Below are positions 12,611-49,485 of a DNA stretch of 50,876 bases, in pieces. The notes beneath the pieces were generated by a model. It was not told where the DNA came from, did not search any database, and worked only from the letters and a program-made list of their open reading frames with translations. Within the stretch, counting starts at the first letter, position 1; every line of letters starts with the position of its first letter. The position numbers and the translations under genes are program-made. This DNA comes from a virus. Location: positions 1 to 50,876 of the IMG/VR virus record IMGVR_UViG_3300023184_006895, one strand, 5' to 3'.

Positions 12611-13690
12611 TCAAACAGTTCTTGCAGCCGGATTTGATTGAGCTTTCTTATATCTATCAACAAATACGTTATATAACTCAAATAATCTTTTCATTGTATT
12701 TTCAACTTCGGCAGTATCATAACGATGTTTAAAGTCATCTGGATCTATATTTGTTAATCCAAGAGATTTTGAATATTCAGTTCTTATCTTTTTTGCCATC
12801 TTTGCTGGATTGGATATAATCTTTCCTTTGGTTACATATTTCGAAATTTCAGCAATCATAGTAACGCCCAGCTCTTCTTCATCTTCAAATGATTGATTGT
12901 ATTTTATAGGCGGCAATGGAGCACGAAAAGGAACATCTGCTTGACTGTAATCAACGAAATTAAAAGGTTTTTTAAATTTTTCATAACCAACATAATATCT
13001 TTTACTAAGTCTGCCTGGTGAAAAATCGTCACCTAAAACCGCCCAATACGTATCCTTACCTAAATTCTTAATATCAAAATCAAATTTACTACTAACATTT
13101 TTTTCTTTTTTGTCAGCAAATATATCCATAAACCATTTTATATAATCGGATTGGTCCATATTAAAAGGTTTTGTAAAAACTTCTTGCGGCGGATTAAATT
13201 TAAATGCTCTTAAAAAAGCATCATTATAAAGCTTTATAGCATCTTTATCAAGCCGTGTTCTATTAAATTCTGTAGGAGTTGTAGAATATTGACCACTTTT
13301 CTCTATAGACTGTTTTCTTTTGCCAAATTTTTTAGCTAAATGTCCGGTAAAAGCATGAATAAGATCATGAGTTTCGTCATTGCCAATCATTTCAGGTTTT
13401 TTTAAATTCGGATTAAGATAAAGTTTGAAACTATTACGATCAGATTGAAAACTTACCCCAGCTTTTCTTTCTGTATCTGTTGCCATTGGAGCAGATTGTA
13501 GTTTTTGACCAGCATCTATTATGTCTATTGGAATAGCTCCAGGTAGCGCACCGCCCTCATATATCAATCTATTCATCGCTTGGGCTAAAGAATAAACCCC
13601 GATCATTGCAGGAGATAATTTTTGGATATCAATATCTTCTTCCAATTGCTCTTTGATTATAAGACGGATATATTCTTTTAATAGGTTCAT
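12611..13690 (-). CDS. probable capsid cargo protein, paralogue A (LLKEYI leader plus ETHD-H domain)
   Basis: 359 residues from the ATG at 13690, preceded by an AGAAGAAGA ribosome-binding site; the longer frame starts at a GTG inside a conserved leader element. The N-terminus MNLLKEYIRLIIKE is an amphipathic helix ending in I-x-E. The rest is homologous to the neighbouring gene: IGVYSLAQAMNRLIYEG, GALPGAIPIDIIDAG, a D-E-T-H-D-L-I-H-x5-H cluster that could bind metal, and a C-terminal EVENTMKRLFELYN helix. I do not recognise the fold. The leader suggests it is loaded into the prohead and trimmed. Confidence 0.75.
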   Translation of the reverse strand: MNLLKEYIRLIIKEQLEEDIDIQKLSPAMIGVYSLAQAMNRLIYEGGALPGAIPIDIIDAGQKLQSAPMATDTERKAGVSFQSDRNSFKLYLNPNLKKPEMIGNDETHDLIHAFTGHLAKKFGKRKQSIEKSGQYSTTPTEFNRTRLDKDAIKLYNDAFLRAFKFNPPQEVFTKPFNMDQSDYIKWFMDIFADKKEKNVSSKFDFDIKNLGKDTYWAVLGDDFSPGRLSKRYYVGYEKFKKPFNFVDYSQADVPFRAPLPPIKYNQSFEDEEELGVTMIAEISKYVTKGKIISNPAKMAKKIRTEYSKSLGLTNIDPDDFKHRYDTAEVENTMKRLFELYNVFVDRYKKAQSNPAARTV

Positions 13691-13700
13691 ATCTTCTTCT

Positions 13701-13720
13701 TCTAATTGGTAGCGTTCCAC
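13701..13720 (-). promoter_or_regulatory. conserved leader element, copy A
   Basis: Minus strand GTGGAACGCTACCAATTAGA ends 10 bases before the ATG at 13690. It is identical to copy B (15125-15144), and 17 of 20 bases match copy C (34970-34989) upstream of an unrelated gene. A short TGG/CCA stem is possible. It may be a translational operator or promoter part. Confidence 0.5.
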
Positions 13721-13738: not shown

Positions 13739-15112
13739 TCATCTTTTAGTTCTTCTTGCTGGTGCTTTTTTAGTCGGACGTGCTGGGGCTTTTTTGGTTG
13801 GACGAGCTGGGGCTTTTTTGGTTGGACGAGCTGGTGCAGGAGCGGGAGCAGCAGGTGCTCTGCGAGGTCTTCTTGCTGGAGCGGGTTCAGGGAATGGAGA
13901 AGGTTCTCTTTTGGCTGCTAAACTCTGTCTGGCAGCGTTTAGTTGGGCTGGTGTTACCTGCTCACGATCATATATGTTCTCTGCCGCTTTCGCAGCTTGT
14001 TTACGAGCTGGTTGAGCGGTAGATAGACCAACCGTATAACGCTGCAACATTTGATTATATAACTCAAATAATCTCGTTAACGCTTTTCTTGCTTCTAGCG
14101 TATTGTATCTTAGTTTATATTCTTGCGGCTTAATATTTCCCACGTTAGTGCTTGGACTTGGTGCTTGTTGATATTTACTAAATATTTTATAAACAACGTT
14201 TTTAACGTCAATAGGTTGACCAGCTTCCACTTCATAACTAATAGCCATGTTAATGACATTTCCAAGCATTTCTTCGTCTTCCATGGATTGTTTCCAAGCA
14301 ACTTTTCCAGGGCTACCTTTGCCTACTGTTGGTGCTCCGAAATTATCCGGATCTGCTGGATCAAGTTTAGCATTGGAGATATCAACATTTCCCCAAGATC
14401 TGTGTCCAAAAATACCTGGAAGAACGCCGCCTGGACCATATACAGATTTCCATATCGTATAGCCGATATATATGAAGTTATCTTTGTTAACAGTATTTCC
14501 GTATATTTTAACGTTCTTATTCTTAATTTTTGGCCAAACTGTTTTAACAAACCAATTGCTATATTCGGTAGGTTTTTTCAATTCAAATGTTTTTTCAAAA
14601 ACTGAATATGGTAACTTATACCCAAATGTTTTTTCAAACTTATCCGTAAAATCCGCAATTTCATCTTTTTTCAAAGTTATTTTATTGAATTTGGAAGGAG
14701 TACCACCATATTGGCCAGAAGCCTCGAGGCTTTCTCTTCTTCTGGCTATTGCTTTGGCAAGGTGTCCAGTAATCGTATGCATAATATCATGAGTTTCATT
14801 ATCGCCACTCATGAAAGTTCCTGCTTTAGAAGGATCAATATATAATTTGAAAGTAGAGCCGGTATGCTGAAGGGATACTCCAGAATTTCTTTCTGTATCT
14901 GTTATCATTGGAGCAGACTTTAATTCTTTTCCGGAACTAATAATGTCTATTGGCAAGGCTCCAGGCAATGCATCTCCCTCATAGATTAGCTTATTAATAG
15001 CTTGAGCAAGAGAATAAATGCCTAACATTCCAGGATTTAGACGTTTTAGGTTAACGTCTTCATCCATAGCTTCTTTAACAAGTAATGTGATATATTCTTT
15101 TAATAGTTTCAT
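13739..15112 (-). CDS. probable capsid cargo protein, paralogue B with a histone-like basic tail
   Basis: 457 residues from the ATG at 15112. It begins MKLLKEYITLLVKEAMDED (amphipathic leader ending V-K-E), then the domain shared with the preceding paralogue: LGIYSLAQAINKLIYEG, GALPGALPIDIIS and D-N-E-T-H-D-I-M-H-x4-GH. Unlike paralogue A it has a long C-terminal tail rich in Ala, Pro, Lys and Arg, ending in PTKKAPAR repeats encoded by 24-base direct repeats. That tail should bind nucleic acid, like histone H1 tails. Biochemical function of the domain is unknown. Confidence 0.75.
   Translation of the reverse strand: MKLLKEYITLLVKEAMDEDVNLKRLNPGMLGIYSLAQAINKLIYEGDALPGALPIDIISSGKELKSAPMITDTERNSGVSLQHTGSTFKLYIDPSKAGTFMSGDNETHDIMHTITGHLAKAIARRRESLEASGQYGGTPSKFNKITLKKDEIADFTDKFEKTFGYKLPYSVFEKTFELKKPTEYSNWFVKTVWPKIKNKNVKIYGNTVNKDNFIYIGYTIWKSVYGPGGVLPGIFGHRSWGNVDISNAKLDPADPDNFGAPTVGKGSPGKVAWKQSMEDEEMLGNVINMAISYEVEAGQPIDVKNVVYKIFSKYQQAPSPSTNVGNIKPQEYKLRYNTLEARKALTRLFELYNQMLQRYTVGLSTAQPARKQAAKAAENIYDREQVTPAQLNAARQSLAAKREPSPFPEPAPARRPRRAPAAPAPAPARPTKKAPARPTKKAPARPTKKAPARRTKR
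13758..13829. repeat. three 24-base direct repeats encoding PTKKAPAR units
   Basis: Units at 13758-13781, 13782-13805 and 13806-13829. The last two are identical and the first differs at three bases. They encode the basic Pro/Ala/Lys/Arg tail of paralogue B and are a likely site of copy-number change. Confidence 0.85.
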
Positions 15113-15124
15113 ATGTTTTTGTCT

Positions 15125-15144
15125 TCTAATTGGTAGCGTTCCAC
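15125..15144 (-). promoter_or_regulatory. conserved leader element, copy B
   Basis: The same 20 bases as copy A, ending 12 bases before the ATG of paralogue B. The A/B identity could reflect gene duplication, but copy C before a different gene argues for function. Confidence 0.5.
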
Positions 15145-15187
15145 TTATCATTATATATAGATAGAACAGAGGGGAGCTTTTGACTAC

Positions 15188-16480: not shown

Positions 16481-17032
16481 ATGAGCAATCAAATTTTAAA
16501 AACTTATATACATGAAATCATCAAAGAAACGTTGCAAGCTGGAAAGAAATTACGTATATTCGATCTTGATGATACTCTTGTAAAAACAAATAGCAAAGTT
16601 CATATTAAAAAAGCTTCGGGTGAGCTGTTAGATTTAAATCCAGCAGAATATGCGGTATATGAAAAAGAACCCGGCGATGAATTTGATTATTCCGACTTTC
16701 AAGGATTAAAAGATCCTAAAGCTATACGTTGGACAACAAAAATATTAAAGCTTGTTATTGCAAAACATGGAACTGACAGCGCAGTTATTCTTACCGCACG
16801 TGGAAGTGAAGAACCAGCTCGGGAATTCTTTCGTTTAAACGATATCCCAGAAATTCCTGTTGTTGCCCTCGGCAATAGCGATCCGGAAATGAAAGCTCAA
16901 TGGATTAAGATGGTAGCTATGAAGTTTGGATATAAAGAGATTGAGTTCTTTGATGATAGTCCAAAGAATATAGCCGCCGTTCAAAGATTAAAAGTTCCTG
17001 GCGTTAAAATCATAGCTAGATTAATAAAATGA
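16481..17032 (+). CDS. HAD-family phosphatase with a LLKEYI-type leader
   Basis: 183 residues on the opposite strand to its neighbours. After MSNQILKTYIHEIIKETLQAG, a leader of the cargo type ending I-K-E, comes a compact HAD phosphohydrolase. DLDDT (28-32) is motif I with the nucleophile Asp, LTARG is the motif II region, and EFFDDSPKN near residue 155 is the acidic motif. Family members such as the phosphatase domain of T4 PseT act on nucleotide or nucleic-acid phosphates; the substrate here is unknown. The start is 21 bases from the divergent gp13-like gene across a near-palindromic ACTAATTAGT. Confidence 0.85.
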   Translation: MSNQILKTYIHEIIKETLQAGKKLRIFDLDDTLVKTNSKVHIKKASGELLDLNPAEYAVYEKEPGDEFDYSDFQGLKDPKAIRWTTKILKLVIAKHGTDSAVILTARGSEEPAREFFRLNDIPEIPVVALGNSDPEMKAQWIKMVAMKFGYKEIEFFDDSPKNIAAVQRLKVPGVKIIARLIK

Positions 17033-35009: not shown

Positions 35010-35369
35010 ATGAATAATATACACGATATACCGGATAACATTTGGGAAGCTATTAATTATGTTTTGCAATATGCCAATACATCAGAAGATTGGTTGGCAG
35101 TTAAAAAAGAAATATTATGGCTATTAACAAATGAACACCGTCACTATTTCTCTCGTAGACACTACTCAACTAAAAAACATTCCATAAATGATTTTGAAAA
35201 ACTCGTGATCGAATACTGGTACTCGGAGACAGGCAAACGTTTAACAATAACTGATAATCTTATACACAATCCTGAGTGGGTAAGGCATCGACGTGGCTGG
35301 GGTCTTAAGAAATACAACAAAGAGAGACAGAAGAATGCACTCAAAAGAAAAAATAAAGAAAATCCGTGA
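35010..35369 (+). CDS. hypothetical protein
   Basis: 119 residues, helical with a very basic C-terminus (KKYNKERQKNALKRKNKENP) suited to nucleic-acid binding. No ribosome-binding site is obvious. Its end overlaps the next gene by 35 bases in another frame. No family recognised. Confidence 0.6.
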   Translation: MNNIHDIPDNIWEAINYVLQYANTSEDWLAVKKEILWLLTNEHRHYFSRRHYSTKKHSINDFEKLVIEYWYSETGKRLTITDNLIHNPEWVRHRRGWGLKKYNKERQKNALKRKNKENP

Positions 35370-36618
35370 ACGAGCTTTGTTAAGAGAATATTTGCAACTT
35401 AAGCTTAATAAAATTCTTAAAGAAGATGATTACTCTGATTACGACAGTTATTATGATTATGGAGGCGGAGGTGGTGGCGGAGGTGGCTATACTGGAAAAG
35501 GATTTGGCAGCTTCAAGCAATTCTTCGAATCAGATTTTGCAAAATTATTCGGGTTCTCTTCTATAAAGAATAGTGTCGATACCGCCATATATGGAATAAA
35601 GGGTATTGCCACAAAAGTTGGTGGGGAAATAGGAATTACTGCTAAAGCTTTATTTTATACTTTGGTACCATTGATTGAACCTGGAGACTATCCAAGCATA
35701 ATCGATATGGCTGCGGCAGATAGAACCGCTATTGAACAAAAGCTTAGTTCTCTTGATAGCAAATACGCATCTGTATTGAAAGAAAATGCAGAAATATTTA
35801 ATAATCCGGATTTTAACCTCGCTTTTTTTCTTGCAGCGCCCGGTGCAGTAATTGGTAATGTTTTGGTTGATACTTCAATAGGGGCTGCAACGGATCTATA
35901 TGATAGCTTTGTTGGAAAAGATAACAATCGTGAAGGTATTGGACGTGATTTAGACAAGCTTTTCTCAGGCTTAATGCCAGGATTTGGTTATAATCCAAAT
36001 GACAAAAATCAAAAAGCAGCTTTTGAGAAAGAACTTTTTTCCGAAATTAAAGCGGATTATCCAGAATTAAGTGAAAGTGATATTCGTTCGGTATTGGGGC
36101 ATCTCGGCGGGGCGCTTAGAGAACAAAATGTTAATATAAAAAATGATCTTGCCAACAAGATTGATAAGTTTCTAGATACAGAACAAGGTCAAACATTTAT
36201 ACAGTCGGTAAAATATAAAATACAACAACTCTCAGATTATCTTAAAAGTCCTATTGCTCAACAAAATATAGAAAGAAGTCCAATGATATCCAAAGGACAA
36301 CAAATATTAGTTGATCAAATAGTAAATAAAGCTCGAGAAGCTATGAATAAATTCAATATTAACTTTATTAAATCAAATTATTCTTCAGAGATTGATAAAT
36401 TTTTTAAAGAAAAAGGAATTGAAGCTTCTGAAGAAAAAGAAAGATTAATAAATGATCCAAAATTTATTGATGAAATTACGAAGCTATTCAAATCAGTATT
36501 GAAAAAGCCATACTTAAATCAACTTGATGAATTGGAAAAACTTAATCCAACAGAACTAAGAAATACGGTTCAAATAGGAAAAAAAGCTATAGAAGATATG
36601 GCTACTCATAAAGCTTAA
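35335..36618 (+). CDS. probable capsid cargo protein with leader and Gly tract
   Basis: 427 residues from ATG 35335 with an AGAGAGA ribosome-binding site. The N-terminus RALLREYLQLKLNKILKED is a leader helix of the cargo type ending L-K-E, then an Asp/Tyr-rich and poly-Gly linker. A mostly helical body includes a hydrophobic stretch around LAFFLAAPGAVIGNVLVDTS. The body resembles nothing I recognise. The hydrophobic segment could insert in or perturb a membrane, which is only inference. Confidence 0.6.
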   Translation: MHSKEKIKKIRERALLREYLQLKLNKILKEDDYSDYDSYYDYGGGGGGGGGYTGKGFGSFKQFFESDFAKLFGFSSIKNSVDTAIYGIKGIATKVGGEIGITAKALFYTLVPLIEPGDYPSIIDMAAADRTAIEQKLSSLDSKYASVLKENAEIFNNPDFNLAFFLAAPGAVIGNVLVDTSIGAATDLYDSFVGKDNNREGIGRDLDKLFSGLMPGFGYNPNDKNQKAAFEKELFSEIKADYPELSESDIRSVLGHLGGALREQNVNIKNDLANKIDKFLDTEQGQTFIQSVKYKIQQLSDYLKSPIAQQNIERSPMISKGQQILVDQIVNKAREAMNKFNINFIKSNYSSEIDKFFKEKGIEASEEKERLINDPKFIDEITKLFKSVLKKPYLNQLDELEKLNPTELRNTVQIGKKAIEDMATHKA

Positions 36619-37592: not shown

Positions 37593-38161
37593 GTAAATCT
37601 ATGCCAATTGGAGAAAATAATTCTTTATCTATCGGACAAATAATCTACGTTCTTTCCAATAAAACGCAAAAGATTATTCCAGCGATAGTTGTTGAAGAAA
37701 TGACTGTCAAAAAAATTGATGGCAACGAAACCTCTTGGAAAGTTTCGGTAGGTCCACAAGGCAAAGAAAAAATTATAGATTCTAAACGTCTGGATGGAGA
37801 ACTTTACGCAAATCTTGATGAAATACAAAGAGTAATGCAAGAACGCTTAAGTGAATTCATTACTCAAATAGTTTCCGATGCCCGATCTCGTGCTGAGACT
37901 TGGTATGGTCAAAAAACAAAATTAATTCAACAACAAGTTAATAACGATAAAATAGATCCTAATACCTTGTTTGATGAAGATGTTCCGGAGACAAGCACAA
38001 AACCATCTGGTTTAAATAAAGCACAAGCGGCTAAAGAAGCACGTAACAAGCTATTGGCTGCAATGTCAGACGAACAGAAAAATAGTTCTGGCGAAATAGT
38101 AGATTCAGAAGAAATTCAGTTACCTGATGGACAAGTAGTAAAGGTTAATATTAGAACATGA
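37589..38161 (+). CDS. hypothetical protein immediately upstream of GroEL
   Basis: 190 residues. An N-terminal beta-rich segment (SIGQIIYVLSNKTQKIIPAIVVEEMTVKKIDG) suggests a small barrel, then a helix and an acidic tail. Start GTG at 37589 overlaps the previous stop; ATG at 37601 is an alternative. Its stop overlaps the GroEL ATG. Function unknown. Confidence 0.6.
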   Translation: MSKSMPIGENNSLSIGQIIYVLSNKTQKIIPAIVVEEMTVKKIDGNETSWKVSVGPQGKEKIIDSKRLDGELYANLDEIQRVMQERLSEFITQIVSDARSRAETWYGQKTKLIQQQVNNDKIDPNTLFDEDVPETSTKPSGLNKAQAAKEARNKLLAAMSDEQKNSSGEIVDSEEIQLPDGQVVKVNIRT

Positions 38162-39903
38162 GTAATCAAGTAGGTGCCCCCAGTCAACGGGTTGTATTTT
38201 TTCCTAAAGCCCATGAAGAGCTTTTCAAAGGCGCAACGGTTCTTGCAAATGCAGTAGCTTCTACAATGGGACCATCTGGACATTCAGTTATCATAGATAT
38301 GGAAACCGGTCCTCCACTAATAACTAAAGACGGTGTAACGGTAGCTAAATCTATTAATCTTAAAGATAAGCTTCAATCAATGGGTGCCGAGCTCCTTAAG
38401 GAAGTTGCTTCTAAGACAAATGACATTGCTGGAGATGGGACAACGACTGCAACTGTTCTTGGTCATGCTATATTTGCAGAAGGTCTTAAGATGATATCGA
38501 CTGGACGTTCTGCAATTGATATCAAAAAGGGAATGGATAAATCCGCAGATATAGTAGTTGATTATCTTAAAAAAACTGCCATTCCACTTTCATCACGAGA
38601 AGATATTATTAATGTAGGGACAATATCAGCCAATGGAGATCGTTCTATTGGTGAGCTATTAGCCAAAGCTATTGAACGTGTTGGTAATGATGGTATTATA
38701 ACGGTAGAACCAGCTAAAAGCGTTGAGACTACTCTTGACATTGTTGAAGGTATGCAGTTAGACGCCGGATATGTTTCTCCATTTTTTATCACAAATTCCG
38801 AGAGAGCTACGTGTGAACTCGATAACCCATATATCTTAATAACTCCTAACAAGATATCTTCAATACAAGATATTGTTGGTTTGTTAGAGGGTGTTCTTAG
38901 AACTTCTCGTCCACTTCTTATCGTCGCAGATGATGTAGAAGGTGAAGCTCTTCATACTCTTATTGTTAATAAGACTAAGGGTGTTGTTAAGGTATGCGCT
39001 ATAAAGGCTCCAAGTTATGGAGAACACAGAGCAGATATTCTTTCAGATATTCAAGTTCTTACTGGTGGAACTGTTTTTAACGCCACCACCGATCTTACTC
39101 TTAAGAAAGCATCTCTTAGTCATATGGGTTCTGCTAAAAAGGTTATTATCGGGCGGTCCTCTACTACAATCATTAGTGACCTTGATGTAGATCGTAAGAA
39201 CGCTTTAGAAGACCGTATACGGTCGCTTAGAATTTCTCTAACAGAAGATAAGACGCTTGATGCCCTTCACGTAGACAAATACCGTAAAAGGCTTGCAAGG
39301 CTTTCTGGCGGGGTAGCTGTTATTAAGGTTGGTGGCTCTACAGAAGTAGAGATTTTGGAAAAGAAAGATAGAGTAGAGGATGCTGTAAACGCAACCTTAG
39401 CTGCTACACAAGAAGGTATTGTTCCTGGTGGTGGAACGGCTCTTTTCTATGCCGCTAATCATCTTAGAGAACATATTAAGTTAAAACAAGCAAATGCATC
39501 AGGCGATTATACGCAAGATGAATTAGCCGGTATGGAAATTATCGCTAACGTCTGTGAATATCCTTTAAACACAATCGTAAATAATACTGGTGCTTCACCA
39601 GATGTTATCAAAGAAAGACTTAAAGCCGCCACTACCGGACATAAGGTTTTTTATATAGACACAGAAAATGCTGATGTTGAAGACCTTGTATCTGCGGTTA
39701 GACATTTTAAGAATAAATCTGAGACAAAGAAAAATGATAGAAGATATGGATATAATGCTGCCAAGGGCACATATGGCGATTTGGTTTCAGAAGGCATTAT
39801 AGATCCAGTAAAAGTTACAAGATTTGCGCTACAACACGCAGTTAGCGTCATCGGTTTGACGTTATCTTGCAATTCCGTAATAGTAAACGAAGAGGAGAAT
39901 TGA
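38158..39903 (+). CDS. groEL: phage-encoded chaperonin, GroEL-like
   Basis: 581 residues, a full-length group I chaperonin (E. coli 548). Conserved: MGPSGHSVII near 37, AGDGTTTATVL at 91-101 (ATP site with Asp93), RVEDAVNATLAATQEGIVPGGG (containing the Asp equivalent to D398) and FALQHAVSVIGL at the end. The C-terminal Gly/Met tail is missing. No GroES-like gene is adjacent, so it may work without a co-chaperonin or use the host's. Phage GroELs are known from Pseudomonas phages EL and OBP. Likely client is a large virion protein, such as the ~1000-residue sheath subunits. Confidence 0.95.
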   Translation: MSNQVGAPSQRVVFFPKAHEELFKGATVLANAVASTMGPSGHSVIIDMETGPPLITKDGVTVAKSINLKDKLQSMGAELLKEVASKTNDIAGDGTTTATVLGHAIFAEGLKMISTGRSAIDIKKGMDKSADIVVDYLKKTAIPLSSREDIINVGTISANGDRSIGELLAKAIERVGNDGIITVEPAKSVETTLDIVEGMQLDAGYVSPFFITNSERATCELDNPYILITPNKISSIQDIVGLLEGVLRTSRPLLIVADDVEGEALHTLIVNKTKGVVKVCAIKAPSYGEHRADILSDIQVLTGGTVFNATTDLTLKKASLSHMGSAKKVIIGRSSTTIISDLDVDRKNALEDRIRSLRISLTEDKTLDALHVDKYRKRLARLSGGVAVIKVGGSTEVEILEKKDRVEDAVNATLAATQEGIVPGGGTALFYAANHLREHIKLKQANASGDYTQDELAGMEIIANVCEYPLNTIVNNTGASPDVIKERLKAATTGHKVFYIDTENADVEDLVSAVRHFKNKSETKKNDRRYGYNAAKGTYGDLVSEGIIDPVKVTRFALQHAVSVIGLTLSCNSVIVNEEEN

Positions 39904-41429: not shown

Positions 41430-41951
41430 TTATACTCTGGAACTCTTCTGATACCAATCATACAAAGCAATGCCAGAAGAAACTGTAACGTTATGATCGT
41501 TATTAAGACCAAGCATTGGAATGGTTACGATGCTATGGGATGCCGCAAGGATTTGATCCGGAACGCCCGTCTTCTCACTACCGAAGAATAGAACCGGATT
41601 TTCTGGATACCTAAAAGAACGAATATCATAACAATCCAAGTTGTCTCGACGTTCAAAACTAACCAAATTGCGTCCCTTCATTCCATGAAGAAAACTATCA
41701 AGAGTAGACCAACGCTTAAGGTGGCGCTTCTCATACTTTAGCGTTGATAGAGCACCCTTCTCATAAAACCACTCAACCTCTACAAGATGAATATCTCGCA
41801 CAAGAAAGTTATGAGCGGTTCTAATCATTCCACCAACATTAAACTCATTCTTTGAACCAAAGATTGCAATGCTTACAGGTTGACGAACTTCATCCAAGGC
41901 ATCACAAATTTCATCACGAGTAAAACCAGAAAGATCCGGTGCGTTTGACAT
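41430..41951 (-). CDS. SpoU/TrmH-family RNA 2'-O-methyltransferase
   Basis: 173 residues from MSNAPDLSGF. SPOUT-family motifs are present in order: EFNVGGMIRTA (motif 1, Asn and Arg), LFFGSEKTGVP (motif 2) and IPMLG...HNVTVSSGIALYDW (motif 3, knot). The enzyme uses S-adenosylmethionine to methylate a ribose in tRNA or rRNA. It follows IF-1 and tRNA-Arg on the same strand, so a phage tRNA may be the substrate. Confidence 0.88.
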   Translation of the reverse strand: MSNAPDLSGFTRDEICDALDEVRQPVSIAIFGSKNEFNVGGMIRTAHNFLVRDIHLVEVEWFYEKGALSTLKYEKRHLKRWSTLDSFLHGMKGRNLVSFERRDNLDCYDIRSFRYPENPVLFFGSEKTGVPDQILAASHSIVTIPMLGLNNDHNVTVSSGIALYDWYQKSSRV

Positions 41952-41956
41952 ATTAA

Positions 41957-42277
41957 TCAATCTTCATCGCTGTTGCGACTACGAACCCGCTGCTTACGAC
42001 GTGGAATGACACCGCCAATTGGAGCACGATCATCACCTTCAAGAGAAGCATAGTATTCACGACTACTACTAATACGGAAAGTAATACGTCCCATACCAGT
42101 ATCATAAGGCGATACTTCAAGCTTAACCCTATCACCAACCTGCAAATCAATCTTATTCTGACGCATCTTGCCAGATAGCTTTGCAGTCACAATCTGATCG
42201 GTCCCCTCAACCTTAACACGGAAAATATCACGAGAATGATCAAGAACAAAACCAATCAATTCCATACGATCTGTCAT
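41957..42277 (-). CDS. infA: translation initiation factor IF-1-like protein
   Basis: 106 residues with an S1/OB fold. FRVKVEGTDQIVTAKLSGKMRQNKIDLQVGDRVKLEVSPYDTGMGRITFR follows bacterial IF-1 closely (SGKMR, GD.V.VE.SPYD..GRI..R). Bacterial IF-1 has about 72 residues; this has a longer N-terminus and a basic C-terminal extension (PRRKQRVRSRN) that could bind RNA. AAAGG ribosome-binding site. It sits between tRNA-Arg and the RNA methyltransferase. It should act at the ribosomal A site during initiation. Confidence 0.88.
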   Translation of the reverse strand: MTDRMELIGFVLDHSRDIFRVKVEGTDQIVTAKLSGKMRQNKIDLQVGDRVKLEVSPYDTGMGRITFRISSSREYYASLEGDDRAPIGGVIPRRKQRVRSRNSDED

Positions 42278-42323: not shown

Positions 42324-42396
42324 CGTTCCCGGCAGGAGTCGAACCTGCGACCGACGAGGTAGAAGCTCGTAGCTCTATCCTCTGAGCTACAGGAAC
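42324..42396 (-). tRNA. tRNA-Arg (UCU)
   Basis: Full cloverleaf: 7-bp acceptor (one G-U), D-stem GCTC/GAGC, anticodon stem ACGAG/CTCGT with loop CTTCTAC (anticodon UCU, reads AGA/AGG), T-arm GCAGG-TTCGACT-CCTGC. No CCA is encoded. AGA is frequent in this AT-rich genome. Confidence 0.95.
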
Positions 42397-42444: not shown

Positions 42445-42825
42445 TCACCAATTATAAAAAAAGGAATTATCACTATGTTGAGGGCGCAAGGTATTAGTTC
42501 CAGAACTACGCATCAAAATATACATCCATGCAGGTTCATTTTCATCACGTAGCTGCACAAGCTCACGCTTATAAAAACTACCATTGGCTTCCAATCGGTC
42601 AAGCCTCTCCAAAGTAGAATTGTCCACTTCGTATAGCTCGCCATTAATCGCCGCCGCTTCTCCATTCTCCGAATTCTTAATGACGCCTGGAAACGCACCA
42701 AACGAAATCATCTGATAAATTTCTTCGCTTGTAAGACGTGAACCAATATAGTTCGCTTCCAATAGCAATGAATGATTACCACGACCCTGCTTCAAGCTTC
42801 CATAAACAAAAACACGATGCTTCAT
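42445..42825 (-). CDS. gamma-glutamylcyclotransferase-like (GGCT/AIG2) protein
   Basis: 126 residues from MKHRVFVYGSLKQGRGNHSLL, preceded by GAGG. The YGSL motif, INGELYEVD and LDRLEANGSFYKRELV are typical of the GGCT fold, which opens gamma-glutamyl amide bonds with 5-oxoproline release or edits such bonds. It is two genes downstream of an amidoligase on the same strand; such pairs have been described in bacteria and phages. Substrate unknown. Confidence 0.85.
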   Translation of the reverse strand: MKHRVFVYGSLKQGRGNHSLLLEANYIGSRLTSEEIYQMISFGAFPGVIKNSENGEAAAINGELYEVDNSTLERLDRLEANGSFYKRELVQLRDENEPAWMYILMRSSGTNTLRPQHSDNSFFYNW

Positions 42826-42833
42826 ATTAAACC

Positions 42834-43076
42834 TCAATTTGTTTCGCAACGGTCAATCTTAAGATATCCAACTTTAATCATATCATTCACGAATGTAACG
42901 GAATTCGTAGTACGAATATAATCACCATAAGCCTTATAGGCTCGCTCTGCCACTTCCTCCATATACCGGCGCAACGTGGGTGCCTCAGTCAAACTGCCCA
43001 TCCAGAGACGCTCCACGAAGTCACGATGATTAGCAGCGTTAATGTTCCAATGAAAGAAACGGTAGGTATTAATCAC
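42834..43076 (-). CDS. hypothetical protein between amidoligase and GGCT genes
   Basis: 80 residues starting at a GTG that overlaps the amidoligase stop (GTGA), so coupled. N-terminal FHWNINAANHRDFVERLWMG, then two helices. It may be the acceptor or a partner in the amidoligase module; I recognise no family. Confidence 0.65.
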   Translation of the reverse strand: MINTYRFFHWNINAANHRDFVERLWMGSLTEAPTLRRYMEEVAERAYKAYGDYIRTTNSVTFVNDMIKVGYLKIDRCETN

Positions 43077-44152
43077 GCCGCAAGCTCCATCGCTCGCTCA
43101 TTGAAGTAGCTAACCACACCCGCCGACAAACCACTAAGCGCATGATCGTCAACGCTAACCGTGGGCATCCCAACCGCCGCACGAACCACCGGGGTAGACG
43201 TGCCCGTGGTGACACTCTGCTCAATCGTAAGGAAGGTCGTGTAGCTGATATTCGCCCGATACGTGCCCCAAAGGCGGCTCTTCGTAACCCGCAGCGACCA
43301 CTTGCGCCGGATCTCGCTGATGCACGCCGGGATGCTCGTCACCGAATAACCCGACACCTCTGCGAGACGTGCCTGGCTTGCCGAGCCAGCGGTGTGAAGC
43401 TCACGGACGATCTTGAACAACCCCTTGTCCCGAGCGTTCGTGCGACCAGCAGGGCGTCCACGACGACGAGCCACCGGAGCCGGGCTAACCGACGCCACAA
43501 GCTGACGGCTCACCTCAACGAAGTTAAGGACAAAGAGAACCCAATTCCCGATCTTCTCCGAACTAACCGAGCCGCTGTGCTGGCGGAATTCAATCGTGCC
43601 CTGACGAACAAAGGCAGCGAGATTGATCTTGTAATAACGATCCCAGCCCCGAGCCGACATAGCCGCCACGGTCTGGCATTCCGCAAGGGCGGCACCATAA
43701 TACGCCGACCAATCGCTCATGCTCTTAAGATACTGATTATTGCTCGCCCGCCGGGAAACCGGCATATAGCTATCGATAACCGTCTCGAAAGACGAATAAC
43801 GCTTGACGATCATCTTGATTTCATCGATGGACAGATCCGACGCCCCGACGTGAACGTGAATGCCGCACGTCTTATTAGCCGTCGCACCGGCAGCGTTCAA
43901 TGCATCGGCAACCGTCTTAAGCGCCGTCATGCCCGCCGTTCCCGAAAGGATAGGGGAAACGACCTCGATGCCGGGATTTCCACGGTTATCACGCACCGAG
44001 CTATCGGTCGTAATCTTCCAATGCGACCGAGTGTTATGATTATAACCTTCGATCTCGCAGGGCAGACCCGTCGCACGGATCGCAGAAAGAGCGACCTCCG
44101 CCGTGATCCCGATGCATTCAATCTCCACCCCAAACGTCCTGTTCGTCATCAT
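43073..44152 (-). CDS. amidoligase (COOH-NH2 ligase, glutamine-synthetase-like fold) with a winged-helix tail
   Basis: 359 residues. GVEIECIG (8-15), GIEVVSPILSG, NKTCGIHVHVGA and GTIEFRQHSG are the acidic and histidine motifs of the amidoligase_2 family, which uses ATP to join carboxyl and amino groups. Residues 235-310 look like a winged helix (ARLAEVSGYSVTSIPACISEIRRKW) after a basic hinge, an unusual DNA-binding addition. The coding DNA is far more GC-rich than the window average, with a long open antisense frame as a result, so recent transfer is likely. Confidence 0.82.
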   Translation of the reverse strand: MMTNRTFGVEIECIGITAEVALSAIRATGLPCEIEGYNHNTRSHWKITTDSSVRDNRGNPGIEVVSPILSGTAGMTALKTVADALNAAGATANKTCGIHVHVGASDLSIDEIKMIVKRYSSFETVIDSYMPVSRRASNNQYLKSMSDWSAYYGAALAECQTVAAMSARGWDRYYKINLAAFVRQGTIEFRQHSGSVSSEKIGNWVLFVLNFVEVSRQLVASVSPAPVARRRGRPAGRTNARDKGLFKIVRELHTAGSASQARLAEVSGYSVTSIPACISEIRRKWSLRVTKSRLWGTYRANISYTTFLTIEQSVTTGTSTPVVRAAVGMPTVSVDDHALSGLSAGVVSYFNERAMELAA

Positions 44153-44257
44153 GTATACAGAATAGCAGGTGTATAAGATTTTTTAAAGGTATTAATTTTT
44201 ATTTTTATTTTATTTTTATTCCCTTATTTTATAAGGGAAAATGGAGATTTTTAGGTA

Positions 44258-44458
44258 TCAACCTAATGTTCTACCATAAGTTAAATTTTTTTGAGCACGT
44301 ATTTCGGAGTTACGATAGGTCCAACATTCGCCGGTTTCATCTATAAAGACGACCCAACAAAGTTCATGCTCTATTCCATAGTCTATTACCATATGAGCTA
44401 AACCTTTTCCTTTCGGCGTTATTAACGGCATAGGAGGGTTCAACTGGACTATATGCAT
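44258..44458 (-). CDS. conserved phage hypothetical protein
   Basis: 66 residues. PPMPLITPKGKGLAHMVIDYGIEHELCWVVFIDETGECWTYRNSEIRAQKNLT matches a small protein I recall as common in many unrelated phages, of unknown function. It starts 4 bases after the 3' end of tRNA-Gly, so both are probably on one transcript. The 105-base AT-rich gap between it and the amidoligase start holds a TTCCCTTAT/ATAAGGGAA hairpin. Confidence 0.75.
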   Translation of the reverse strand: MHIVQLNPPMPLITPKGKGLAHMVIDYGIEHELCWVVFIDETGECWTYRNSEIRAQKNLTYGRTLG

Positions 44459-44461
44459 AAG

Positions 44462-44533
44462 AGCGGAAAATCGGATTCGAACCGACGACCGGCGGCTTGG
44501 AAAGCCGCAGCTCTACCACTGAGCTATTTCCGC
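44462..44533 (-). tRNA. tRNA-Gly (UCC)
   Basis: Acceptor GCGGAAA/TTTCCGC, D-stem GCTC/GAGC, anticodon stem GCGGC/GCCGC with loop TTTCCAA (anticodon UCC, reads GGA), T-arm GTCGG-TTCGAAT-CCGAT. No encoded CCA. Confidence 0.95.
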
Positions 44534-45041: not shown

Positions 45042-46058
45042 CTACAGACGATCAACAAAACTCATATCGTCTGCGCCTTCTGAAAAAACAGTATCATTCA
45101 TATCCATAGAAAATGTCTGATAATCTATCCAATTACGAAACTGAAATTTATTGTCAAAACGAATTACTTCATTATTATATAGAATTGCCCATTCTGCAAC
45201 TTGATCTAAAATATCTCCCTTGTTAACAATAAGAGTTGTAACGCCATTCATACGAATTCCACGTTCAATAATATTCCAGTTAAGCCAGTTAACTTGACGC
45301 TTTCTTCCCGTAGTCGCTCCAAACTCTTGTCCTGCCTCCTGAATGCGGTTAAAAACCTCTCCAGCGGGTTGAAAGGACTTGGCTCCTACATAAGTGTCAT
45401 AAGCCTTTACAACGCCATATACGTTCCTTATATGCTTGTGATGAAACCCATTGTTCAGAACACCTCCAATGCCACAATGACTGCTGGTGACATATGGATA
45501 ATCACCCCAATCAATATCTAAATTAAAAGATTGAGCGCCTTCGGCAAGAATTCTAACCGGCTGATCCCCATAAAACTCTTCATACATATCGGTAAGATAA
45601 TTTTGCAGAAGAGGATCTGTAGATGCTCTTACACCTTTACGAGAATATTTTGCAGAATATGCTGGACCGTTTCCGGTCTTGGTTGTCCCAATGCGGGTAT
45701 CGCTACTGTCCTCGGTTAAATGCTCTTCGGTTACAAGATGAACGTTGTTTGCAATACCAACATTAATCTTCTTACCAAGATTATCCTCAAGATACTTTAC
45801 TTCTTCGAGAAGTTTTGAAGTACTGGCAACACAACCGGGACCGATTACAGAACGAATACCATGAAATACTCCAGAAGGAATAAGATGGGTTACAAACTTC
45901 TTTCCTTCATGGTAAATGGTATGACCCGCATTACCTCCACCATTAAAACGTAAACAATGGGTATAATCACGTTTAGCCATTAATGCGTGGGAAACTTTTC
46001 CTTTCCCACTATCTCCATGTGCTAAATCAACTACTACATCAATCTTAATATTGCTCAT
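45042..46058 (-). CDS. adenylosuccinate synthetase-like (short PurA / PurZ-type)
   Basis: 338 residues, much shorter than E. coli PurA (about 430) and near the length of archaeal and phage members. P-loop-like GDSGKGK (15-21) keeps the catalytic Asp but has Ser where PurA has Glu; NAGHT has the conserved His46; GTTKTGNGPAYSAKYSRKGVRA and TTGRKRQVNWLN are the IMP/aspartate-binding segments. It joins aspartate to IMP, or in PurZ enzymes to dGMP for 2-aminoadenine synthesis. Which applies cannot be decided from these motifs. Confidence 0.9.
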   Translation of the reverse strand: MSNIKIDVVVDLAHGDSGKGKVSHALMAKRDYTHCLRFNGGGNAGHTIYHEGKKFVTHLIPSGVFHGIRSVIGPGCVASTSKLLEEVKYLEDNLGKKINVGIANNVHLVTEEHLTEDSSDTRIGTTKTGNGPAYSAKYSRKGVRASTDPLLQNYLTDMYEEFYGDQPVRILAEGAQSFNLDIDWGDYPYVTSSHCGIGGVLNNGFHHKHIRNVYGVVKAYDTYVGAKSFQPAGEVFNRIQEAGQEFGATTGRKRQVNWLNWNIIERGIRMNGVTTLIVNKGDILDQVAEWAILYNNEVIRFDNKFQFRNWIDYQTFSMDMNDTVFSEGADDMSFVDRL

Positions 46059-46099: not shown

Positions 46100-46294
46100 T
46101 CAAGGAGACGATTCGGTAGGAAGTGTTCCTACAAGATTATCTGCACCTTGAACTTTGCTCTTTACAGTTTCACCAAACTGCTTCCAGATCGCAAAACAAA
46201 CAACGGCTATCAAACAAAGAATAATAATATATTCAACGGTAGAAAGACCTTTTGTGTCTTTTAATAGTTTACGCATTTTTCTTGTTGTTAACAT
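46100..46294 (-). CDS. Flp-type (type IVb) pilin-like protein
   Basis: 64 residues. Basic N-terminus, then KG-LSTVEYIIILCLIAVVCFAIWKQFGETVKSK: Gly16 at the prepilin-peptidase site, Glu21 at position +5, Tyr next, and a hydrophobic helix, as in Flp/Fap pilins. The wording GLSTVEY with K-x-FG after the helix is familiar from Myxococcota. A phage copy could enter or jam a host Tad pilus, or be a moron gene. A lone small gene with no pilus assembly genes nearby. Confidence 0.72.
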   Translation of the reverse strand: MLTTRKMRKLLKDTKGLSTVEYIIILCLIAVVCFAIWKQFGETVKSKVQGADNLVGTLPTESSP

Positions 46295-46424: not shown

Positions 46425-46958
46425 TTAACTGGTTTTTGTTTGACCGTCTAATGTTTGCAAAGTAGTTAACGTTTTTTTAAGTTCATCTGAGGTTTTCTTA
46501 GTTCCATCAGATGCAGTTCCAAGTCCAGTTGCTTGATCAGCCTGAGCTTTAGTAAATGTAGCTTGAGTTTGTTCTGGTTTCGCCAAATCTTTTGAAGCTT
46601 TAGATGCGTTAGCTAAACCGGTAGAGGTTTTGTCAGTAGATGATATCATGTTATTAGTATATGATGTCATTTTATGTGCAGCAGTATTAATAGCTTTTTG
46701 ATTTTTATTAATTAATTCACTGTTTGCGGCTACAGCATCTTCTATGTTTGATATCGTGCTTTCCGTATCATCATCTGTTGAACGTCCACCAGTTGATTTT
46801 GTTGTTTCTGTAGAGCTGGCTCCGGTTGTTGTGCCGGATGAACTTGTTGAACTAGTTCCAAAAGACGTTACTCCTCCAGAACTTCCTATAGTTCCTGCTT
46901 CTTTCAAAGCTTGTTGAACAATCAAACCGATATACTCTTTTAAAAGCTGTCTATTCAT
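46425..46958 (-). CDS. Ser/Thr-rich probable capsid cargo protein
   Basis: 177 residues from MNRQLLKEYIGLIVQQALKEAG; ATG two codons earlier is possible. The leader is the closest to LLKEYI-L(I/V) in the set and ends L-K-E-A, matching a T4-type cleavage site. The remainder is low-complexity Ser/Thr/Gly followed by a helical part without motifs. Start overlaps the previous stop. Confidence 0.6.
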   Translation of the reverse strand: MNRQLLKEYIGLIVQQALKEAGTIGSSGGVTSFGTSSTSSSGTTTGASSTETTKSTGGRSTDDDTESTISNIEDAVAANSELINKNQKAINTAAHKMTSYTNNMISSTDKTSTGLANASKASKDLAKPEQTQATFTKAQADQATGLGTASDGTKKTSDELKKTLTTLQTLDGQTKTS

Positions 46959-46963
46959 AAACA

Positions 46964-47401
46964 TTAAATATTTGGTCGTTTAGCAGAATATATCTTTTCT
47001 AAAATTTCATTTGTATATACGTCTCGTTCACCACCACCAATTCCCCAGATACAAGCTATTCCTAACTCATTACATAACTGACGTTCTGGAGTGTTCCTCT
47101 GTCCACGTATACCGCCATTACCAAATACATTAGGTCTTAATCTTTTCAACGCCTCGCAGACTGTTCCATCACTATCGTCTACACGCTCTACAGCTTCTAT
47201 ACCCTTTATAGACAATAGGATTTCTTTACGCTCGTGCCAAGGCATCATTACAATACCTCTCTTCTTTAAAACCCATTCATCGCTATTAAGGATTATCATA
47301 ACACGCCCAAAGTTTTGAGCACCGGTTATCATCCGGATATGACCGGGATGAATAATGTCAAATCCGCCAGATAATGCTATTGTTTGATTTTCTATTGCCA
47401 T
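46964..47401 (-). CDS. cytidylyltransferase-like protein (HldE/RfaE C-domain type)
   Basis: 145 residues. ALSGGFDIIHPGHIRMI (9-25) is the nucleotide-binding HxGH motif, with the fold of glycerol-3-phosphate cytidylyltransferase and the ADP-heptose synthase C-terminal domain; the later ISxTxxR motif is replaced by NGGIRGQRNTPE. It probably couples a sugar or polyol phosphate to a nucleotide; substrate unknown. It lies downstream of the CCA-adding enzyme gene. Confidence 0.85.
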   Translation of the reverse strand: MAIENQTIALSGGFDIIHPGHIRMITGAQNFGRVMIILNSDEWVLKKRGIVMMPWHERKEILLSIKGIEAVERVDDSDGTVCEALKRLRPNVFGNGGIRGQRNTPERQLCNELGIACIWGIGGGERDVYTNEILEKIYSAKRPNI

Positions 47402-47436: not shown

Positions 47437-49485
47437 TCACATTACGAAAACGCTACCAATAGATGCACCAAGAATAGTTTCTAAATCACCTTCTATTTCC
47501 AAAGCGATACTTTCTAGTTCTTCTGCATTGATTGCTTCACGGGCTTCTTCATCTCTACTATAACGAGTTTGTTTGCGCCCCCAACCTGCAATTCCAGTAA
47601 TAATAGATTGTGGCAATGGATTAAACGTAATCTTACCAGTTAAAAGATATTGAGCTAATAACTCATAAGCAAACTCATACCAATTACGCATTTTATTGTC
47701 ACGAGCACTCTTCATCGTGCCAAGTTGTTGAGCTACATATTTTAATATTTTGTCTCGACCGGCATTACCTTGGAAATCATATGTTTTGCTATAAACATCA
47801 ATTCCATAAACTTCTTTTAGTATATCTGCGATACGTTTACGCAAATCTTTAATAAATTCTTGCCATTTCTCCGCTGGAAATCCTCTTCCCCTTGCGAGAG
47901 CATGACCTAAACGATGTGCCAATATCCATCCAGATGACATATAACGTTCAGCACCCGTGTTACTTGTATATATAATCGTTATTGTGTTGCCGTCAGGATC
48001 TGGAATTTCATCAGCAGTAAGTTTCATCTTGTCTCTTACGAAACTCATATCAACTAAACCGACTTCTCTAAACTGGGATTTGTTAACTCTTGGATCGTTA
48101 ACAAGATACATATCAAAATCAAATGGAGTTTTTTCCCATTGTCGTTTAATCTTTTCTACACCTCGTGGAGACGTTAAGATTTTTCTATCAACATCTCCGA
48201 AAGAAGAACGCCGACCCCAATCTCCAACAGTCTTAAACTGTCTGATCGCCATTTCATCTACTTCTTCTGAGAATAGACTTTCCATCAATTTTTCAAGATT
48301 AGTTTTATTTTCTTTTAGCATTTCTTCGAATTTTTCTTTTTCACGATTTGCGATTGCAATTCCAAGTTCTCTTCCGCTTAGTTCTGGAAATTCATTGCTT
48401 GAAACTGTTGGCTCATATTCCAAAAATGATTGAATTGTTTTATTTGAAATTCCCAAGGCTTCGGCAAAATATTTCAATGATGTATCTTTTAATCCACTGA
48501 TTTTATATATTTTTTTCAATTTTAAAGCTGTTTCTGGAGAAACGTTTTTGAAGTCGAGTAAAAATTGAACCTGTCTGATTTCATCTCCAGTATATTTTGC
48601 TTTATTTAGTTTTATAGCTACAGCTTTTGCATCATTGTTTTGCAATAAAAGTGCTAAAGCTACTGGGATATCACTTATTTCTGAGTATTGTTTGTTAACA
48701 ACCAGTCCTGGGAATATTTGCTCCCATAGATTGTAACGTTCTATCAGTTGATAAAAACTAATAGGACTAATTGCAGATTTTATTCCTTTTAAGAATTCAT
48801 CTCTTATTCTTTCCCCTGATACTCCTTCTAAAGAATTATCATCGGATATTGCTTCATCTGCTTCTTTATCTAATTTAGTCCCAAAACGAGCAGCAAATCT
48901 TAATGCTCTTAATATTCTTAATCTATCTTCATCAAATCTTTCTTTTGCATTGCCTACGGTTTTTACAACTTTATTTTCTATGTCTTGTATGCCGCCTACA
49001 TAGTCAACAATCTCTTTATTTGAGATATCATAAAAAAGAGCATTCATTGTTAAATCCCGACGATTGACATCTTTTTCAATTGTTGCAAATTCAACACTAT
49101 CAGGTCTTCTGCCTTTTCCTATGTCCGTTCTAAAAGTAGCGATTTCATAATCATTTCCTTCTGGAGTGATTATTTTAACAATACCAAATGCCCTACCCAA
49201 TTCTAAAACTCTATACTCCGGATAAGCTTTTAGAATTTCTTCTACTTCATCTGGAGTAGCATTCGTGGTTACATCAAAATCTTTAGGAGTTTTACCAAGT
49301 AATGCATCTCTTACAGAGCCACCTACTAAATAAAAGTCTTTTCCAGAGCTTTTAAAAATATCTGACAATGTTTCTAAATCAGTCGGCAAAGTAATTTCAA
49401 ATTTTTGTCTTACTTGTTCTGATAGTATTGTAGATATGTTTAATTCTTGCAGAAGTTTTACAAGATTAGTTTTATTAATTGCCAT
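47437..49485 (-). CDS. cca: CCA-adding tRNA nucleotidyltransferase with a long C-terminal extension
   Basis: 682 residues. Residues 30-400 are a class II CCA enzyme: LVGGSVRDALLG (53-64), DFDVT (69-73, catalytic carboxylates), RRDLTMNAL and DRLRILRALRFAARF. It adds CCA to tRNA 3' ends; none of the tRNAs here encodes CCA. Residues about 430-682 are an extra domain with GWILAHRLGHALARG (a His-x3-His cluster lacking the Glu of zinc proteases) and WYEFAYELLAQYLLTGKI; it is not part of known CCA enzymes and I do not recognise it. Confidence 0.9.
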   Translation of the reverse strand: MAINKTNLVKLLQELNISTILSEQVRQKFEITLPTDLETLSDIFKSSGKDFYLVGGSVRDALLGKTPKDFDVTTNATPDEVEEILKAYPEYRVLELGRAFGIVKIITPEGNDYEIATFRTDIGKGRRPDSVEFATIEKDVNRRDLTMNALFYDISNKEIVDYVGGIQDIENKVVKTVGNAKERFDEDRLRILRALRFAARFGTKLDKEADEAISDDNSLEGVSGERIRDEFLKGIKSAISPISFYQLIERYNLWEQIFPGLVVNKQYSEISDIPVALALLLQNNDAKAVAIKLNKAKYTGDEIRQVQFLLDFKNVSPETALKLKKIYKISGLKDTSLKYFAEALGISNKTIQSFLEYEPTVSSNEFPELSGRELGIAIANREKEKFEEMLKENKTNLEKLMESLFSEEVDEMAIRQFKTVGDWGRRSSFGDVDRKILTSPRGVEKIKRQWEKTPFDFDMYLVNDPRVNKSQFREVGLVDMSFVRDKMKLTADEIPDPDGNTITIIYTSNTGAERYMSSGWILAHRLGHALARGRGFPAEKWQEFIKDLRKRIADILKEVYGIDVYSKTYDFQGNAGRDKILKYVAQQLGTMKSARDNKMRNWYEFAYELLAQYLLTGKITFNPLPQSIITGIAGWGRKQTRYSRDEEAREAINAEELESIALEIEGDLETILGASIGSVFVM

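Follow-up and report, generated by a model that had tools for sequence, protein, structure and literature searches.

What does a phage amidoligase do, and with which partners does it do it? Genes of this family have been annotated in phages for years, and in the literature that we searched we found no tested function for them. Here we address this question through a viral contig from IMG/VR that was analysed along its whole length of 50,876 bases and is hereafter called the window. Among its products are a tail sheath, a major head protein and a portal, and it thus belongs to a contractile-tailed phage. At positions 44152-42445, on the minus strand, it carries a module in which an amidoligase gene is followed by a gene for a small protein, p80, and by a gene for a gamma-glutamyl cyclotransferase (GGCT) (Table 1).

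Results

A three-gene module conserved in related phages

An earlier note on this DNA had treated the three genes as a unit. This is confirmed by the Pfam matches of the two enzymes, by the overlapping open reading frames and by the synteny of four other IMG/VR contigs (L002-L005), in which the same three-gene order is found. A tRNA-Arg(tct) gene lies downstream of the module in four of these five contigs, the window included. For GGCT, the more likely start is the ATG at 42825, which is preceded by GAGG and located 8 nt past the p80 stop.

The surroundings of the module hold several other genes of interest. Around the tRNA genes, the window encodes a phage-borne GroEL, an IF-1-like protein, a SpoU-type methylase and, judged by eye, a CCA-adding-like protein (38158-39903, 41957-42277, 41430-41960 and 47437-49485). 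An adenylosuccinate synthetase of 338 aa at 45042-46058 (2.4e-72) is shorter than the 416-position Pfam profile and might be a PurZ-like enzyme. A 64-aa ORF at 46100-46294 is similar to Flp/Fap pilin (Pfam E 2e-4, below the Pfam cutoff). Finally, the proteins at 12611-13720, 13739-15151, 46425-46964, 16481-17032 and 35293-36618 resemble one another at the N-terminus, where they have LLKEYIxLxxKE or a variant of it, reminiscent of the T4 capsid-targeting propeptides.

Table 1. Features of the amidoligase module and its flanks (positions in the window)
Feature	Position	Strand	Remarks
tRNA-Arg(tct)	42324..42396	-	ARAGORN; directly downstream of the module; same position in L002-L004
GGCT, GGACT/AIG2-type gamma-glutamyl cyclotransferase	42445..42825	-	126 aa from ATG; ORF opens at 42849
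p80, partner protein	42834..43076	-	80 aa; GTG start, 4-nt overlap with the ligase stop
Amidoligase, Amidoligase_2-family ATP-dependent carboxylate-amine ligase, predicted GS/YbdK-like core with inserted winged helix	43073..44152	-	359 aa; Pfam, AF2, VIA
Ligase C-terminal core helix, residues 344-358, invariant R353	43079..43123	-	also ends family members without the insert
Predicted winged helix-turn-helix in the ligase, residues 240-300, before the C-terminal helix	43253..43435	-	AF2, Foldseek, DUF3489 at the equivalent site
AT-hook-like basic linker RRRGRPAGR, residues 229-237	43442..43468	-	RGRP core kept in all five relatives
Ligase catalytic core, residues 1-222	43487..44152	-	34-member alignment and AF2 model
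Promoter-like block upstream of the ligase	44153..44195	-	strongly conserved; once in the window (pattern searches)
66-aa ORF	44258-44458		between the module and tRNA-Gly(tcc)
tRNA-Gly(tcc)	44461..44533	-	ARAGORN; closest tRNA gene on the upstream side; same position in L002-L004

The two enzymes belong to known families

The ligase is a member of the Amidoligase_2 family (PF12224; 2.1e-39, 136.3 bits for a cutoff of 22). Its AlphaFold2 (AF2) model, with a mean pLDDT of 89.5, resembles YbdK (VIA Z 12.3, 209-212 residues aligned, rmsd 3.6-3.9) as well as many glutamine synthetases (VIA Z about 12), which predicts a YbdK-like fold of the glutamine synthetase (GS) superfamily. The ligase shares this predicted fold with YbdK and the other glutamate-cysteine ligase-like carboxylate-amine ligases; it differs from YbdK by its inserted winged helix and has no match at E 1 or better among PDB sequences. 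Among 34 diverse members, E10, E12, E63, H99, H101, R134, R135, N177, E188, R190 and H192 are invariant, and we take them to correspond to the residues that bind metal and ATP in glutamine synthetase. Judging from family and fold, the enzyme would most likely use ATP to join a carboxylate to an amine.

The third gene encodes a cyclotransferase of the GGACT family (PF06094; 4.2e-23, 82.6 bits for a cutoff of 22.8) that also matches phrog_2520 (2.2e-19). It shares the profile of GGACT and YtfP, its nearest solved structures being YtfP itself (1xhs, 3.4e-15) and the AIG2-like domain-containing protein 1 (2kl2, 1e-6), and differs from them in being coupled here to an amidoligase and p80. The motifs VYGSL and LDRLE are found in the window, whose GGCT was aligned to 2kl2, and VYGSL and LD(R/M)LE in the four relatives. 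Presumably, YGSL is the substrate motif and the conserved Glu of LDxLE the catalytic residue. The earlier note had raised the loss of catalytic residues as a ground for doubt; the family-conserved residues are retained in GGCT and, across the 34 members, in the ligase. Neither enzyme matches a PADLOC defence model.

A predicted winged helix is inserted in the ligase

The earlier note had also ascribed a winged-helix tail to the ligase. The winged helix is upheld as a prediction by the AF2 model of residues 240-300, in which helices 240-255, 260-267 and 271-285 and strands 289-291 and 297-300 are placed with high confidence, and by Foldseek, where many matches of the ligase are MarR-type regulators that fit this part of the model; Pfam gives only a hint (E about 0.1). 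Its position, in turn, is that of an insertion, as the last helix of the ligase, with R353, is common to amidoligases that have no such tail. The AT-hook-like reading of the basic linker in front of it comes from a short motif and is put forward as such.

In other phages, the insert site is occupied by DUF3489 (L024, 1.5e-15; L101, 4.9e-10; L107, 5e-5, below the Pfam cutoff), whereas the amidoligases of Bacteroidota phages have an HTH-like segment at the N-terminus instead, with a weak Pfam match (HTH_23, 0.002, L135). HTH modules have therefore joined the amidoligase in more than one way. Literature searches for an amidoligase with an HTH, a winged helix or DUF3489 returned nothing relevant. 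These predicted modules support some role of the amidoligase at DNA. The earlier note had proposed that the tail could direct tagging to nucleoid proteins, which we regard as a speculative reading; the winged helix of the ligase could equally serve autoregulation.

p80 is the ligase's most widespread partner

How widely the gene between the two enzymes is shared was overlooked by the earlier note. We found that p80 represents a family that Pfam, PHROGs and NCBIfam do not contain, as it has no match above noise in them, and report this family here as a new finding. A search of PDB sequences gave nothing convincing and PADLOC one weak match to a part of DpdF (E 0.008); in phage records, p80 is annotated as "hypothetical protein". 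Its AF2 model (pLDDT 84) consists of two strands, three helices and one strand. Among the matches listed against PDB folds none is clear (best VIA Z 2.3), and the strong matches in BFVD are viral proteins without listed function (best TM 0.92).

An HMM built solely from the group of the window detected the gene downstream of the amidoligases of L006, L007, L013 and L020, with E-values between 5e-7 and 4e-5 in a set of about 1,255 ORFs. The iterated HMM found p80 in 102 of 163 amidoligase loci on viral and bacterial contigs. Without exception p80 is encoded on the strand of the ligase, in most cases -4 to +90 nt downstream of it. The A2-based E-values of p80 take in sequences that built the model, and the argument is therefore carried by the window-group-only HMM and by a survey of genomes in which p80 was searched in reverse, not starting from the amidoligase. 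Among 200 genomes from a single bacterial family, p80 is present in 14 of the 15 that have an amidoligase and in 3 of the 185 others (Fisher p 8.5e-18), and the sole amidoligase without p80 is located 314 bases away from the end of its contig. Likewise, p80 is found in 3 of 4 amidoligase genomes of Bacteroidales versus 0 of 194 others. The linkage of ligase and p80 extends across phyla: p80 accompanies amidoligases in Bacteroidota, Desulfovibrionales, Verrucomicrobiota and others. Of the partners of the ligase, it is the one most widely shared.

The exceptions, where p80 occurs without an amidoligase, are a broken copy (L184) and proteins of about 150 aa with a p80-like N-terminal part. In the latter (L181:5153-5617, L182:4760-5209 and L183:5035-5493) the p80-like domain is joined to a second domain and no amidoligase is nearby; their three genomes come from the same family as the Hymenobacter genome in which L104 is found.

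Could p80 itself be the substrate? The ligase would then attach an amino acid or an amine to p80, or p80 to other proteins, and GGCT would remove it, in the manner of a Pup/PafA or BCCP/BirA system. Indeed, p80 is small, dedicated and encoded directly downstream of the ligase, and PafA, the enzyme that attaches Pup, likewise belongs to the GS superfamily, so that both systems combine a ligase of this superfamily with a small protein. The p80 sequences themselves argue against this role. In an alignment of 90 of them no lysine reaches 50% conservation, and the C-termini vary (ETN, QEN, MVN, DKS and others) with no conserved Glu or Gln. p80 is thus devoid of the features of a classical acceptor or tag and less likely to be the modified protein. 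It also differs from the disordered Pup in being predicted by AF2 as a folded domain, and p80 domains exist without the ligase. Altogether, we consider it unlikely that p80 is the substrate.

GGCT and amidotransferase genes were added recurrently

To describe the distribution of the gene set, we relied on our own HMMs for GGCT, which replaced over-specific patterns that gave zero matches in a scan of viral contigs. Clustering the amidoligase loci at 60% identity gave 79 clusters, of which 42 contain p80, 30 contain GGCT and 12 contain both. The objection that the amidoligase-GGCT pair would not be found elsewhere, which the earlier note had anticipated, consequently fails. In the 20 loci whose gene maps were compared, the surrounding genes vary in size and direction. 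On a tree of 76 amidoligases, at least 9 changes are needed for p80 and 14 for GGCT; these counts are rough because the tree is a quick one with modest support. In a clade of marine phages without p80, GGCT directly follows the ligase, and in a clade of gut phages without p80 the slot of p80 is taken by a class-II amidotransferase-like gene. The addition of GGCT or of a class-II amidotransferase to the ligase is recurrent. Genes of the latter kind were seen in the p80 slot at L019:3809-4342 (GATase_4, 8e-7) and in L045, L064, L065-L067, L073, L081, L093, L129, L130 and L145.

The pairing of amidoligase and GGCT in phages is already known. In 2009, Iyer et al. reportedly described Amidoligase_2 genes adjoining AIG2/GGCT or class-II amidotransferase genes. 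Arthrobacter phages combine GGCT, amidoligase and amidotransferase, Bacillus phages are a further precedent, and phage C75C1 has an amidotransferase-GGCT fusion. Neighbourhoods of Amidoligase_2 and AIG2/GGCT were described in prophages as PHROG 2443 and 2520 (PMC11318856), and LUZ24-like phages hold amidoligase, class-II amidotransferase, ATP-grasp and AIG2 genes within one early region (PMC3890496). As the same enzymes are combined in known phages, the pair is real and not new. With these neighbourhoods our module shares two adjacent enzyme families in a phage; it adds p80 and the HTH module within the ligase, neither of which we found in the literature searched.

In another kind of role, the operon would make a small gamma-glutamyl metabolite or modify the cell envelope, for example in superinfection exclusion, and p80 would be an enzyme subunit. 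Such a metabolite or envelope role was suggested for the amidoligases of phage phiEco32 (Iyer 2009, as cited in PMC10580990 and PMC11318856). The composition of the LUZ24-like early region also speaks for this. However, a purely metabolic or envelope enzyme would not be expected to carry HTH modules, as the ligase does in several lineages, and we regard such a role as rather unlikely but as a serious alternative.

A-ending codons are kept out of an old resident gene

The earlier note had seen a foreign base composition in the ligase gene and had proposed a transfer. The composition is indeed raised, with a GC of 57.5% versus 39% for the window and a GC3 of 0.66 versus about 0.25 in most window genes. 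However, what we observe is a near loss of NNA codons and not an overall GC shift. At four-fold sites of the ligase, A falls to 0-5% in the five phages, versus a median of 27-32% in surrounding genes, T stays near the level of the neighbours (32-47%) and G is raised to 33-44%. The scarcity of NNA codons is also present in p80 and GGCT but weaker. The NNA-poor ligase genes are those at 43073-44152 in the window and at L002:5001-6083, L003:5001-6083, L004:5001-6113 and L005:5001-6113.

A module newly acquired from a GC-rich genome, still bearing the composition of its donor, would fit the high GC of the ligase and the effect graded over ligase, p80 and GGCT. It would not fit T-ending codons that are nearly as common as in the neighbours. 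Furthermore, the bias is common to five diverged phages, the ligases of the relatives being 66-73% identical to the protein of the window, and the identity at four-fold sites between the window and its relatives (0.45-0.63 in the ligase) is comparable with that of neighbouring genes. Re-equilibration would have restored more A-ending codons than the 0-5% that remain; these codons have not returned. Since its silent sites are about as diverged as those of its neighbours, the ligase is an old resident gene from which A-ending codons are kept out, and we regard recent transfer as a very improbable cause of the composition.

The anticodons of the tRNA genes of these phages include UCU, UCC and UGG, with UGC also in L002 and L003. 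The phage tRNAs mostly have U34 anticodons, which read A-ending codons, those that the ligase gene avoids. An antisense gene over the ligase (43142-44176, plus strand, 344 aa) was considered and rejected: the antisense identity is only 44-51% and, in three genes without TTA, CTA and TCA, synonymous shuffles likewise stay open. This frame is open only because these three codons are nearly missing.

A conserved promoter-like block precedes the ligase

Over the 45 bases upstream of the ligase, the four relatives share 82-93% identity with the window. This exceeds the identity found upstream of every other gene compared, the cupin gene coming close in two relatives (0.82-0.84). The block includes TGCTATTCT, 6 nt before the ATG of the ligase; the relatives have TGCTATTCT or a one-base variant of it, separated from the ATG by six or seven bases. 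No Shine-Dalgarno sequence is visible before this ATG in the window or the four relatives, and the arrangement suggests a leaderless ligase transcript. The palindrome TGTATACA at 44152-44159 is perfect in only three of the five phages; its conservation at the start of the ligase is only suggestive of an operator of the gene's own. A coherent reading of these sequence features is that the ligase would be expressed early, on host tRNAs and from its own promoter, possibly under the control of its own winged helix.

Discussion

We propose that the operon makes and reverses an amide bond by means of an ATP-dependent ligase, a dedicated partner, p80, and a GGCT that opens a gamma-glutamyl amide; we give this reading a probability of roughly 0.45. 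The amidoligase would activate a carboxylate with ATP, the gamma-carboxyl of glutamate being the likeliest candidate, and then join it to an amine. The part of p80 would most likely be that of an adaptor or a subunit, either in presenting the substrate or in positioning the enzyme. The cyclotransferase, of GGACT type, would then open the gamma-glutamyl amide and release 5-oxoproline, by which the mark would be removed or edited. Finally, the winged helix of the ligase may sit on DNA, most simply on its own promoter, in a BirA-like manner. Donor, acceptor, a direct contact between ligase and p80, and DNA binding are the parts of this scheme that we infer.

The module has in common with BirA, the bifunctional biotin ligase and repressor, an amide-forming ligase, a winged helix, which is predicted here, and a small partner protein. 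It differs in the fold of the ligase, in a p80 without conserved acceptor lysine and in a DNA binding that is deduced. The p80-like domains without amidoligase in L181-L183 count against p80 as a partner. In addition, p80 is missing in the large clade of marine phages and in the gut clade, which indicates that the enzyme can work without it.

A more specific scheme, which we hold as possible but tentative, is that p80 and the amidoligase form an undescribed phage protein-modification pair. The ligase, recruited to DNA by exchangeable HTH modules, would modify p80 or a target bound by p80, and GGCT or the class-II amidotransferase would reverse the reaction.

The phage is AT-rich and has several tRNAs with U34 anticodons, and yet one of its genes persistently avoids NNA codons; this could show how a phage gene is kept tuned to the tRNA pool of the host. 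The presence of HTH modules on the ligase in several lineages hints at an action of the enzyme at DNA or at self-regulation, neither of which would be expected from a purely metabolic role. A dedicated p80 partner across phyla offers, through one small protein, a direct handle on the function of phage amidoligases.
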